42,513 bases of DNA from a virus, in IMG/VR virus record IMGVR_UViG_3300021467_000011, positions 1-42,513 of that record; one strand, written 5' to 3'. The translations under genes and the position numbers were made by a program. Below, one piece after another: positions 6,763-39,308 of this stretch. The notes under the pieces were generated by a model that ran no database searches, was not told the DNA's origin, and saw only the letters and a program-made list of their open reading frames with translations. Numbering within the stretch: the first letter of the stretch is position 1; every line of letters begins with the position of its first letter.

Positions 6763-7127
6763 AACTTGATTTCCTTCTTCGCTTTAACTCTACCAATCAA
6801 GGCCAGGACTCCAGAGGCCAACAACACCAGTTGGACAATCAAATCGGTTATCGTATCCTCTTCGCCGCTCAGGTCAATGACGCCAAGCCAGGCAAGGAAG
6901 ATGACGACGATCGTTACGAATCCGCCCCATACACCACGACTAAGCCAGGGTTTTTTTGTTTCTTGTTTTGGCGGATCGCTGCTTAATTCTTGCAAGCGAG
7001 AAGCAATGGCCTTCATTCGGTCTTTGTCCTCTTCAGTCGTTGCACTCAACATTGCGCCGAGATTTTGGATTTCTTCTGTTTTGGTTAGTAATCTGGAGTT
7101 TTCCCTGGGTTCTTTTGTTTCGTCCAT
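6759..7127 (-). CDS. Holin candidate (two transmembrane segments)
   Basis: The 122-residue product has a charged N-terminal helix, a transmembrane segment at about residues 68-86 (GFVTIVVIFLAWLGVI), a short acidic loop (DLSGEEDT), a second segment at about 92-112 (DLIVQLVLLASGVLALIG) and a basic tail (RVKAKKEIKL). This layout fits a class II holin that oligomerises in the inner membrane and opens it to the lysis enzyme. The start at 7127 was chosen because of a good AAGGAG site; an earlier ATG at 7187 lacks one. Confidence 0.65.
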   Translation of the reverse strand: MDETKEPRENSRLLTKTEEIQNLGAMLSATTEEDKDRMKAIASRLQELSSDPPKQETKKPWLSRGVWGGFVTIVVIFLAWLGVIDLSGEEDTITDLIVQLVLLASGVLALIGRVKAKKEIKL

Positions 7128-8204: not shown

Positions 8205-8975
8205 TTACTTCCTTGCGTCTTCTTTGTATCTCGTTTCGGTATTGTGATACTCGATGCCTTCAAGGTGCTTCGCCAAGTCAGTCTTGATATAGTACCGCTT
8301 CCCGAAGCGCTCCATCAGGTGGATAAATCTAACTCCGAAGTCCCGCAAATCGAATTGCGGACGACCGAAATGGTTCAAGGGGCCGACCTTGTACACGTCC
8401 GTATATTCGTGCGTATAACGCACTACCCCAATCGCCTCGTCGGGGTCAATTACCGGCTCAAGGCTCACGTGCGTCTCTATGTGCGGATAATCCCGCTTCG
8501 CAATCTTCATCGCCTCATAACGCCAGTAGGGCGGCGCCGCTCCAGGTTCGCGTAAATGGGCAATCATCGGATCGCGGGTTGTTAATGTTACACTGAACAC
8601 GTCCCCCGGAGTGTATAAATCGAAATCGTCCACAGCCTGAGTACCCGCTTTAGTCAACACCATTATCGGCAAGTCGTACCTTTTGAGGGCCTTGATGACT
8701 TTCCGCGTGTATCGAACGCCGGCATCTATCAACGGATACGGGTCGCTCATAAAACTGAGCAGAATTCGCTTTGTCGTCCCACTCAGCTTCTGGGCCTCTT
8801 TCTCCAACTCGTCCACATTGACGTGAGGCTCCGGTTCATCGCAATCCCACTTGAAGCGTTGCGCTAACTTGCGGACGTAGCAGTACGCACAACCGTGTGC
8901 ACAACCTCGGTAGTGGTTAATTGCCAGTAGTGCGTATTCCTTCGCCCGGCCTTTCGGTTCGTAGATGATGCTCAT
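8205..8975 (-). CDS. Radical SAM protein, spore photoproduct lyase-like family
   Basis: The 256-residue protein carries the radical SAM cluster motif C25-AHG-C29-AY-C32, preceded by NHYRG, and the downstream features of the SplB-like group (LLSFMSDPYPLID, MVLTKAG, THVSLEPVIDPDEAI). Such enzymes bind a 4Fe-4S cluster and S-adenosylmethionine and generate a 5'-deoxyadenosyl radical. The substrate here is unknown; repair or modification of nucleic acid is a reasonable guess because its ATG overlaps the stop of the RuvC-like resolvase (ATGA). Confidence 0.85.
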   Translation of the reverse strand: MSIIYEPKGRAKEYALLAINHYRGCAHGCAYCYVRKLAQRFKWDCDEPEPHVNVDELEKEAQKLSGTTKRILLSFMSDPYPLIDAGVRYTRKVIKALKRYDLPIMVLTKAGTQAVDDFDLYTPGDVFSVTLTTRDPMIAHLREPGAAPPYWRYEAMKIAKRDYPHIETHVSLEPVIDPDEAIGVVRYTHEYTDVYKVGPLNHFGRPQFDLRDFGVRFIHLMERFGKRYYIKTDLAKHLEGIEYHNTETRYKEDARK

Positions 8976-9548: not shown

Positions 9549-10241
9549 TCAAAACGGAATGTCATCGTCCCCTTTTCCCGGCACGTTCGCCTCGACCAGC
9601 TTCTGCAGCTGTCGGCCGCGCTCGCCGTTCGTATTAGTGGGTCTGATAGCCTCATCAACAGTCTTGAGTACGGGCGCATCCTTGCCAGACCGAAGTCGCT
9701 GAAGAAATCGCTTACCGGGACTATCTGGCCCCGAGAGAATCTGGGCCTCGGCTTCCCACCGCGCATCGTCGCCTCGCAAACCGTCGTCAATAGTTGGCCC
9801 CTCTGGTTTGTCGATAACAATCCAATGCCCGCCGTAAACTTGAGCGTGCTTCTCCGCCAAAAGATGCCCGGCCCGCTTGCGGTTATCAAGATCACCGTGC
9901 AATTTCGGCGGATCTACAAAAACCGGAACGCAGCGGCCAACAAGGCAAGGTTTCTGTTCGTGCGAAATGCACTTGATGTAGGTGTCGGTTTTCAGGTCAT
10001 CATACGCGCCGCTGCTTGATTTTGGCCGCCGCATTGCAGCCCTAACTTTGTTCACGACTGGCCGGCGTGAACGACTGCCTCCCTCAGCATAATACGTTTG
10101 GATGGCGCATTTCGCCTCAAGCCAATCGTAATCGGCGAGCGCATTGAGCCAAACCTCAATTTCGCCCTCACTTGGTTTCCAATTCTGCCAGAGCGCTTGG
10201 ATTTCTTCTTGGACGAATTGTCTTGCTTCACTGCTATCCAA
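9549..10241 (-). CDS. Helicase-loader-like protein with SSB-type C-terminal tail
   Basis: The product (about 230 residues) has an N-terminal helical domain (EARQFVQEEIQALWQNWKPS to RPVVNKVRAAMRR) that resembles G39P-type replicative helicase loaders, then a middle domain with three Cys, and a flexible end that finishes exactly DDDIPF. That hexapeptide is the protein-interaction tail of bacterial SSB. A TTG at 10241 has GGGAG 7 nt upstream and overlaps the initiator stop by 8 bp, so it is the preferred start; a GTG at 10307 is the alternative. It follows the initiator gene, fitting a loader role. Confidence 0.65.
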   Translation of the reverse strand: MDSSEARQFVQEEIQALWQNWKPSEGEIEVWLNALADYDWLEAKCAIQTYYAEGGSRSRRPVVNKVRAAMRRPKSSSGAYDDLKTDTYIKCISHEQKPCLVGRCVPVFVDPPKLHGDLDNRKRAGHLLAEKHAQVYGGHWIVIDKPEGPTIDDGLRGDDARWEAEAQILSGPDSPGKRFLQRLRSGKDAPVLKTVDEAIRPTNTNGERGRQLQKLVEANVPGKGDDDIPF

Positions 10242-10860
10242 TCTCAGTCTCCCAACAACGGTGCTTGATATACTGTTGGAAATGTTTCCACGCTGGCACA
10301 AATTCACCCTTAGCTTTCATCGCCTTACGGTTGTCGATCTGCATTTGGATTACGTCAGCCAAGATAGGCACGATGTCGCGCCAGTCTTTGTGCCTGCGCT
10401 TGAGGTTTTCAAACTCGGTTCGGCCTCCACGTTTTACGCCTGGATAAAGACAGCGCGCTTGCTCAAACAAATCAAAAAAATTGTCTTTTATATCTCTTCT
10501 CTGTCTCTCCTCTGTCTCTGTCTCTGCGCCCCCAGTATGCGGAGCATCTTGCAAGCATCTTGCAAGCATTGTGCTATCATCTTGGTAGATTTCTATAAAG
10601 CCTGCATCGACAAGGGGTTGCAACGATGGAATTTTTGATAGAGGCAATTTCCGGGCGAGATATTTGCGGTCAGCGGGGATTTTCCCATTGTGTTTCCGCG
10701 CCCTATACAACCACAAGCATATCAATAGCAACTTGCAAGCATCTTGCAAGCATTCAAAATCATCGTCATCAAGCAATTCCGTGTGCAACTTAATCCAAGG
10801 TGGATTGCGCTTCTTATAATGTTGGAAGCGTTCCCAATTATGTATGCGAATATACTTCAT
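10234..10860 (-). CDS. Replication initiator / replisome organiser
   Basis: The 208-residue product begins with a winged-helix type domain (YIRIHNWERFQHYKKRNPPW, LLLICLWLYRARKHNGKIP, YLARKLPLSKI, LVDAGFIEIY) as in phage replication-organiser proteins, followed by a charged linker (AETETEERQRRD) and a C-terminal helical domain (FVPAWKHFQQYIKHRCW). It would bind the origin and recruit the loader encoded next. The gene itself contains two clusters of 11-bp iterons and an AT-rich stretch, as in lambda O. The start at 10860 has AAGTGAG upstream. Confidence 0.75.
   Translation of the reverse strand: MKYIRIHNWERFQHYKKRNPPWIKLHTELLDDDDFECLQDACKLLLICLWLYRARKHNGKIPADRKYLARKLPLSKIPSLQPLVDAGFIEIYQDDSTMLARCLQDAPHTGGAETETEERQRRDIKDNFFDLFEQARCLYPGVKRGGRTEFENLKRRHKDWRDIVPILADVIQMQIDNRKAMKAKGEFVPAWKHFQQYIKHRCWETEIG
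10543..10570. repeat. Iteron cluster 1 (11-bp tandem repeats)
   Basis: Two full copies of AGCATCTTGCA followed by a partial third. Each unit contains the palindrome CTTGCAAG, and the 11-bp period places units on one face of the helix. Confidence 0.75.
10732..10754. repeat. Iteron cluster 2 (11-bp tandem repeats)
   Basis: This 23-bp stretch is identical to 10548-10570 and lies 184 bp away. In the protein the two clusters are read as a repeated CLQDA motif in different surroundings, so the DNA rather than the peptide seems to be what is conserved. Confidence 0.75.
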
Positions 10861-31782: not shown

Positions 31783-31826
31783 ATATCTGTGTATATGGGT
31801 CATCATATCTGCGTATATGGGTCATC
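31783..31826. repeat. 22-bp tandem duplication at a gene end
   Basis: Two copies of a 22-bp unit, 31783-31804 and 31805-31826, differing at one base. The duplication covers the last codons of the tail completion gene (DDPYTQI) and its TGA; the second copy lies outside the gene in a different frame. Confidence 0.9.
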
Positions 31827-32267
31827 ATCTTTCGTGCGATAATGCACCGTTATCTCTAAGGCGATGCCGGAAAAGCCTCGACCGTCGCTGATAATGTCGC
31901 TGCCGACCAATTCCGTATCGAGGGCATAACCGCCGCGTTGCGGGTCTTCCATCAGCTTTTTGTGGATGTCGGCGCGGACCTGGTTGATTCGGGTATCTAT
32001 CGAATTCGTGGCCTGGTCACTATCAAGAACCAGGGCCCACAATATGAACGTCTGCGCCCAACTTTCGCCGCCGGTCGCCCTGGTCTCTTTGGCCTCGGCG
32101 CCCTGCATCACCAGCACGTGCCCGTCTCGGGGCGTCAAATCCTGCCCATAGTCGAGTCGTTTCGGGCGAATCGCAACGAGGTCCTGGTTGAAGCCGTTCG
32201 CGACCGTTACCTGGCCGATTGCGGTTGCGATGTTCGCTGCAATATGTTCGACTATCGGCGTACTCAT
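31803..32267 (-). CDS. Tail terminator / completion protein (gpU-like position)
   Basis: The 154-residue product has the pattern of tail completion proteins: N-terminal helix (IVEHIAANIATAIGQV), strands (HVLVMQGAEAKET, WAQTFILWALVLDSD), helix (INQVRADIHKKLMEDPQRGG) and a final ALEITVHYRTKDDDPY. In lambda, gpU caps the tube end that joins the head. Its place between Z-like and tube genes agrees. Confidence 0.75.
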   Translation of the reverse strand: MSTPIVEHIAANIATAIGQVTVANGFNQDLVAIRPKRLDYGQDLTPRDGHVLVMQGAEAKETRATGGESWAQTFILWALVLDSDQATNSIDTRINQVRADIHKKLMEDPQRGGYALDTELVGSDIISDGRGFSGIALEITVHYRTKDDDPYTQI

Positions 32268-38663: not shown

Positions 38664-39308
38664 CTAATTGAAATTGCTTATCAACGCGCCTGCACTGGTA
38701 GCTTCTGCGCCACCACCGCCAATGTCACGAATCACGATTTTGAAAAACTGGTATTCGCACGAATCAAAAACGAGTTTCGCAATGCCTCCACCGCTGACTA
38801 TCGCATCCGGTGCGCCGTTGATGACGCTGACAGGCTGATACCATTGCTGGTCGGTGATTGTGATGGTGTCGCAATAGTATTGATTGGTGACCCCGGTTTG
38901 CGTCGCACCGGTTACGGCGGTGCCGTGGGCGACATACTCGGCAGGACTGCTGCCGCTCTTGTACGCCCAGATCGTCCAACTTAAAGTCTTGTTCGCTGCC
39001 AAAGAACCGATAAAGGCCACCTGGACTGCGCCGACCGGCAATTGGAAATACACTGTGCCGTCGGCGGTTATATCGGGCGCGTTCTTTTGGGTGCTGCCCG
39101 TCAGCTGGCTGTCTTCCGTTGTTTTCACCGTCCGCCACGTCACCCAACCGGTAGTCGTGCCGGGGCCGACCGGCCTGGTCGTCAACGCGATACTTGTACC
39201 CGCCAGAATAATGCAGACTATCGCGATAGTGAGCCATCGCAGAGTAAGCCATCGCAGAGTGAGCCGTCGCAGCCCACGCTCGCTGTACGTTTGGACTGGA
39301 AACCCCAT
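38664..39308 (-). CDS. Signal-anchored beta-rich protein
   Basis: The 214-residue product has a basic N-terminus with a repeated LTLRWLTLRWL element and one hydrophobic segment (TIAIVCIILAGTSIAL), which may be a signal anchor or signal peptide, followed by an all-beta domain (GTVYFQLPVGAVQVAFIGSL, KTLSWTIWAYKSG, YYCDTITITDQQW). An AAAGGGTGGG site precedes the start. Together with the next gene it makes a pair of exported-type proteins inside the late operon. Confidence 0.7.
   Translation of the reverse strand: MGFPVQTYSERGLRRLTLRWLTLRWLTIAIVCIILAGTSIALTTRPVGPGTTTGWVTWRTVKTTEDSQLTGSTQKNAPDITADGTVYFQLPVGAVQVAFIGSLAANKTLSWTIWAYKSGSSPAEYVAHGTAVTGATQTGVTNQYYCDTITITDQQWYQPVSVINGAPDAIVSGGGIAKLVFDSCEYQFFKIVIRDIGGGGAEATSAGALISNFN
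39232..39274. repeat. 15-bp tandem repeat in the signal-anchor coding sequence
   Basis: Units AGCCATCGCAGAGTA (39232-39246), AGCCATCGCAGAGTG (39247-39261) and a diverged third copy. It encodes the LTLRW repeat before the membrane segment. Confidence 0.85.

Follow-up and report, generated by a model that had tools for sequence, protein, structure and literature searches.

Replication from the lambda origin proceeds by binding of the initiator to iterons, opening of the flanking tract and loading of the helicase (PMC7466680). The lambda ori sits centrally within the coding sequence of gene O, where four iterons of 18 bp, spaced about 20-24 bp, are followed by a purine-asymmetric, A-rich tract at the boundary between two domains. 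Replication modules of initiator and helicase loader with the ori inside the initiator gene were reportedly described by Weigel and Seitz in 2006. Nesting of an origin in this way is an established principle.

The window analysed in this study, the whole stretch of a 42.5-kb virus record, carries terminase, portal, head, tail, integrase, RecT-like and PD-(D/E)XK nuclease genes, which identify it as a temperate tailed phage. Its gene at 10234-10860 is very probably a phage replication initiator whose own coding sequence holds the origin on which it acts. An origin nested in this gene had been proposed in the initial annotation, and it is supported as a prediction by the match to PHROG_26426 and by conservation of iterons and tract at the DNA level. 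The suggested likeness to lambda O and its ori was borne out in the layout: the predicted origin lies mid-coding sequence, with iterons followed by an asymmetric purine tract at a domain boundary. The next gene encodes a helicase loader in lambda and a DnaB-like helicase or a loader in many relatives; the next ORF of the window gives only a weak hint of one. Unlike the lambda iterons, those of the window family are 11 bp long, with TGCTAGCA, TGATATCA or TGCTTGCA cores and often a second, upstream cluster, and the tract is (AGAGAC)n, about 50% AT, instead of A-rich. The protein itself, noted initially to have little visible similarity to lambda O, shows none in sequence: it gave no match to the Pfam profile Phage_rep_O (PF04492) at E<=1, against 6e-36 for lambda O itself, and hhalign gave a probability of 0.1% for the pair.

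Compared with the Weigel and Seitz modules, the principle of a self-carried origin is common, whereas the initiator families and iterons differ. The PHROG_26426 members Iodobacter phage phiPLPE gp04, Vibrio phage phiV208 gp43 and Xanthomonas phage PBR31 gp04 are homologous to the window protein and show the same nested iterons and GA tract. The searched literature, in which most subscription papers were missing, nowhere describes an origin in any of the three genes, nor this family's version of the principle, with two iteron classes and a codon-locked GA tract. The features of the window are as follows.

10234-10860, minus strand: initiator (replication protein) gene, assigned from PHROG_26426, homologue N-termini and AlphaFold2 models
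10731-10754, minus strand: upstream iteron cluster, two 11-bp units TGCTTGCAAGA / TGCTTGCAAGT
10539-10579, minus strand: downstream iteron array, four units at exact 11-bp steps
10493-10526, minus strand: purine tract of AGAGAC / AGAGGAGAGA type on the coding strand (pyrimidine on the plus strand)
10464-10492, no strand given: AT-rich stretch adjoining the purine tract
9549-10307, minus strand: downstream ORF of 252 aa in the helicase/loader slot of relatives, weak 'helicase loader' hint (E 0.32)
aa 1-95 of the initiator (AlphaFold2): N-terminal winged-helix-like helix/hairpin domain
about aa 100-115 (AlphaFold2): low-confidence linker, encoded by the GA tract
aa 116-208 (AlphaFold2): C-terminal helical domain

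Probable initiator gene and predicted protein

The initiator comprises 208 amino acids counted from ATG 10860, and the ORF can also be read from GTG 10908. Since homologues start with the consensus MxYxxxKNWxxFQHYKDR, ATG 10860 is probably the true start. A profile match to the PHROG_26426 'replication protein' (E 4e-21) covers residues 7-119, the N-terminal half, and the same family was matched by all 74 aligned relatives scanned. Weaker profile matches pointed to DnaD-like or initiation families. The Pfam profiles DnaD_N and Phage_rep_org_N gave no match with the window initiator, and each weakly matched a single protein (E 0.005 and 0.006) among the 74 relatives.

AlphaFold2 modelled the whole protein with a mean pLDDT of 82, and the N-terminal domain alone, composed of helices and beta hairpins, with a mean of 88. 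PDB fold searches with both models found no convincing relative, the best match of the N-terminal model being a methionine-aminopeptidase insert domain (Z 5.5); among PDB sequences, phmmer and profile searches yielded chance-level matches only, two of them MarR-type winged helices. The term winged helix therefore leans on secondary structure, on these weak MarR-type and methionine-aminopeptidase-insert matches and on the names of related PHROGs. Among viral structure models a match was phiPLPE gp04. The C-terminal halves vary among family members, with Phg_2220_C in five and many PHROG families represented, which suggests that the DNA-binding domain and the predicted origin travel together as a cassette.

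Iterons of the window

Analysis of the window revealed a perfect 23-bp block, CTTGCAAGCATCTTGCAAGCATT, at 10548-10570 and 10732-10754, as originally described. Exactly two copies of its 21-bp core are present in the window, and 100 dinucleotide shuffles gave no match to it, even with three mismatches allowed. Matching units of the two clusters are 184 bp apart. The upstream 8-mers occupy 10745-10752 and 10734-10741, in reading frames 0 and 2. The downstream units are TGATAGCA (10572-10579), TGCTTGCA (10561-10568), TGCTTGCA (10550-10557) and a degenerate TGCTCCGC (10539-10546), in reading frames 2, 1, 0 and 2 in gene order; TGATAGCA and TGCTCCGC are two further degenerate units in register, beyond those listed initially. 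The 11-bp period also stood: no 44-nt stretch in the entire 42.5 kb is more strongly 11-periodic than 10544-10587, and when the codons of the gene were shuffled synonymously, the periodicity of the array stood above that of the shuffles (P = 0.002).

The claim of a palindromic core held in part. The iterons are near-palindromic, but the core first chosen, CTTGCAAG, was slightly mis-framed; by comparison across the family the repeat unit is TGCTTGCA+3, with TGCTTGCA as the variant of TGCTAGCA used here. No other 8-bp palindrome of the window is as over-represented as CTTGCAAG (10 copies against 0.69 expected), of which six single copies without iteron context lie outside the initiator gene, at 6989, 7995, 12464, 15362, 21542 and 25688. 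It was dropped as iteron core in favour of TGCTTGCA on account of the family register and these six copies; TGCTTGCA has a single copy outside the gene in the window.

Iteron-binding initiators often autoregulate, and the sites lie within the transcribed region, so the iterons could instead be an operator for the initiator gene, acting by autorepression or as a transcriptional roadblock, and not the origin itself. This reading is improbable: the sites lie 100-320 nt into the gene, away from a promoter, the same layout is found in the proven origin of lambda, and the codon-biased purine tract alongside and the neighbouring helicase or loader gene of relatives suit an origin.

Purine tract and AT-rich stretch

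In gene order, the upstream iterons are followed by the downstream array, the purine tract and the AT-rich stretch. The asymmetric pyrimidine tract of the initial annotation was recovered at 10493-10526, and the GA tract of the coding strand is conserved in the family. It encodes an E/T/R-rich linker between the N- and C-terminal domains, and on sequence grounds it is proposed as the strand-opening or helicase-loading element. The AT-rich stretch is present in the window as described, at about 10464-10492, but the family AT profile is flat at this position and gives no family feature there. It was rejected as a conserved element, the GA tract, only about 50% AT, being what the family keeps; the AT-rich stretch may aid melting in the window phage.

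Relatives and conserved layout

A Blast search of phage records found ten distant relatives, including phiPLPE, phiV208, Cr-LKS3 and PBR31. With the window protein as the only query, scans of viral contigs and of genome contigs gave no matches; alignment-based scans succeeded, with 80+80 viral loci and 24 bacterial-genome loci, the latter including Planctomycetes (Limnoglobus, Zavarzinella), Mesorhizobium, Sinorhizobium, Bradyrhizobium and Variovorax. In total 189 genes from IMG/VR, isolated phages and bacterial genomes were reduced to 141 by dropping those at least 85% identical, a set of distantly related phages and prophages. The N-terminal domains of the homologues are about 32-52% identical to that of the window.

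Conservation of the repeats against synonymous change had been set beforehand as a test, with loss of the repeats from a conserved protein as the refuting outcome. The contrary was observed: iterons and GA tract are kept at one and the same place in the gene in most of the 141 genes. Inspection by eye showed, in nearly all, 11-bp iterons whose last degenerate copy abuts an (AGAGAC)n tract on the coding strand, and this tract begins at almost the same codon from gene to gene. Some recombination and packaging sites sit inside phage coding regions, and an array of this kind could in principle be a recombination or packaging (pac/cos-like) signal. Such a role is very improbable here, the terminase genes being about 6 kb off and the signal tracking the initiator family across phages of different virion types.

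Three database records among the relatives deserve comment. Limnohabitans phage DC33 (PQ492659.1, our locus L008), a 39-kb circular record filed under Inoviridae, has a tailed-phage-type initiator, and its taxonomy looks wrong. The initiator gene is left unannotated in L005 (MW202640.1) and L006 (MW202462.1); in L005 a 'homing endonuclease' ORF in another frame overlaps no more than its first bases.

Selection at the DNA level

Synonymous-codon shuffles with the protein fixed were compared with the real genes by autocorrelation over gene nt 230-330. Only lag 11 (mean z 1.85, with z>2 in half of the genes) and lag 22 (1.55) stood out from the shuffles. In 116 of the 141 loci, against 7.9 expected, the initiator gene contains the strongest 11-periodic stretch of the entire locus, and the same test gave 7-16 loci for lags 7, 9, 13, 15 and 17; even lags are inflated in this test by the GA tract itself. 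The 141 sequences are interrelated and do not constitute 141 independent trials.

GCTAGC and GATATC cores, pooled over both iteron classes, number 3.22 per gene against 0.75 under synonymous shuffle. Class A cores form two clusters, at nt 120-180 (153 against 19 expected) and nt 270-330 (136 against 14.5), and class B cores one (127 against 22 expected). Class labels were taken from the downstream cores, so the independent evidence lies in the label-free counts, the upstream cluster and the depletion outside the gene. There, in loci L010-L193, cores fall below expectation (GCTAGC 66 against 96, GATATC 19 against 35), perhaps through selection against stray initiator sites or through general palindrome avoidance.

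Codon use was compared in linkers delimited by protein sequence only, as a tract defined by purine content biases such a test. Threonine is encoded by ACA in 97% of linker positions against 27% elsewhere, glutamic acid by GAG in 90% against 37%, and arginine by AGA in 84% against 19%. The test of purine-tract length alone was weaker (P<0.05 in 44% of genes). Taken as sequence comparison, two clusters of near-palindromic 11-bp (one helical turn) iterons within the predicted winged-helix-like part, and a coding-strand (AGAGAC)n tract within the predicted linker part, are kept at the DNA level across a very diverse family, the upstream cluster chiefly in class A.

The least probable alternative, rejected by the frame and codon tests, is that a low-complexity linker (CLQDA/ETETE) with ordinary codon use produced the repeats and the tract as a side effect of repetition in the protein: ETETE/ERERE linkers are of low complexity and could expand by slippage, and the tract keeps to one main reading frame, but the linker codon choice is extreme, the signal exceeds synonymous shuffles, GATATC cores occur about equally in all three frames, and consecutive 11-bp units fall in different frames because 11 mod 3 = 2, so that a peptide repeat cannot explain the iterons.

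Iteron classes and overlap with the genetic code

The iterons form two classes, TGCTAGCA (class A, GCTAGC core) and TGATATCA (class B, GATATC core). Class A is represented by phiPLPE and phiV208 and class B by PBR31; the window, with the minority form TGCTTGCA, is among seven of the 141 genes with neither majority core. The upstream cluster is present in 73 of 83 class A genes against 2 of 51 genes of the GATATC class. On the tree the two classes need only one switch. Loci L121 and L130 contain both TGCTAGCA-type and TGATATCA-type cores and are possible intermediates of a switch in specificity.

Degenerate units arise where the consensus would put a stop codon in frame. In class A a frame-0 unit would read TGC TAG CA, with a stop, and mostly TGCAAGCA, TGCTTGCA or TGCTATCA is found instead; in class B frame-0 units G or C precedes GATATC, so that TGA is avoided. 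In the window TGCTTGCA occurs in all three frames, and this form never yields a stop; the initiator of the window may prefer it.

Predicted initiation mechanism

We infer origin function, binding by the initiator and melting at the GA tract from these sequence patterns. In the initiator-carried origin that we favour, modelled on lambda, the N-terminal domain would bind iterons lined up on a single face of the helix to form an O-some-like complex. This complex would open the adjoining asymmetric purine/pyrimidine tract or keep it single-stranded, and the variable C-terminal domain would recruit the replicative helicase, either directly or via a loader often encoded next door. Nesting would hold initiator and origin together during exchange of replication modules.

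A more specific model is advanced tentatively, as somewhat short of an even chance: the opener would be a codon-locked homopurine (AGAGAC)n that is not AT-rich and is read by its sequence or strand asymmetry, specificity would have been switched by one symmetric change from TGCTAGCA to TGATATCA, and iteron degeneracy would be set by stop-codon avoidance in the overlapping frame. If a homopurine opener and a one-step switch are true, the family would document how a DNA-binding protein and a site in its own gene have co-evolved in nature.

For a large phage family of Proteobacteria, Planctomycetes and other hosts, annotated so far only as 'replication protein' or 'hypothetical', an origin can now be predicted, with its boundaries placed to the base. 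As site and protein are contained in one sequence, the family is a ready set for deciphering how a phage initiator domain recognises its sites. It is also suited to asking whether a GA tract can substitute for an AT-rich unwinding element, and to measuring how far a DNA signal written through a protein can bend that protein.

Neighbouring genes and GC skew

No homologue was found in a search with the 252-aa ORF downstream of the window initiator. The neighbouring gene in 60 relatives is DnaB-like in 12, a DnaC-like loader in seven and a P-like loader in three. GC skew, suggested initially as a check, gave no support in the window: the minimum lies about 7 kb from the predicted ori and is confounded by transcription direction. 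In phiPLPE, phiV208 and PBR31 the skew is compatible with the prediction, the minima of detrended cumulative GC skew lying within 1.2-2.3 kb of the predicted ori; here it is confounded by divergent early operons.

Elsewhere in the replication/recombination region of the window, a radical SAM protein gene (8205-8975, minus strand) adjoins a Holliday-junction resolvase gene. Tandem repeats of the window occur at 31783-31828 (22 bp, 2.1 copies) and 39228-39272 (15 bp, three copies).
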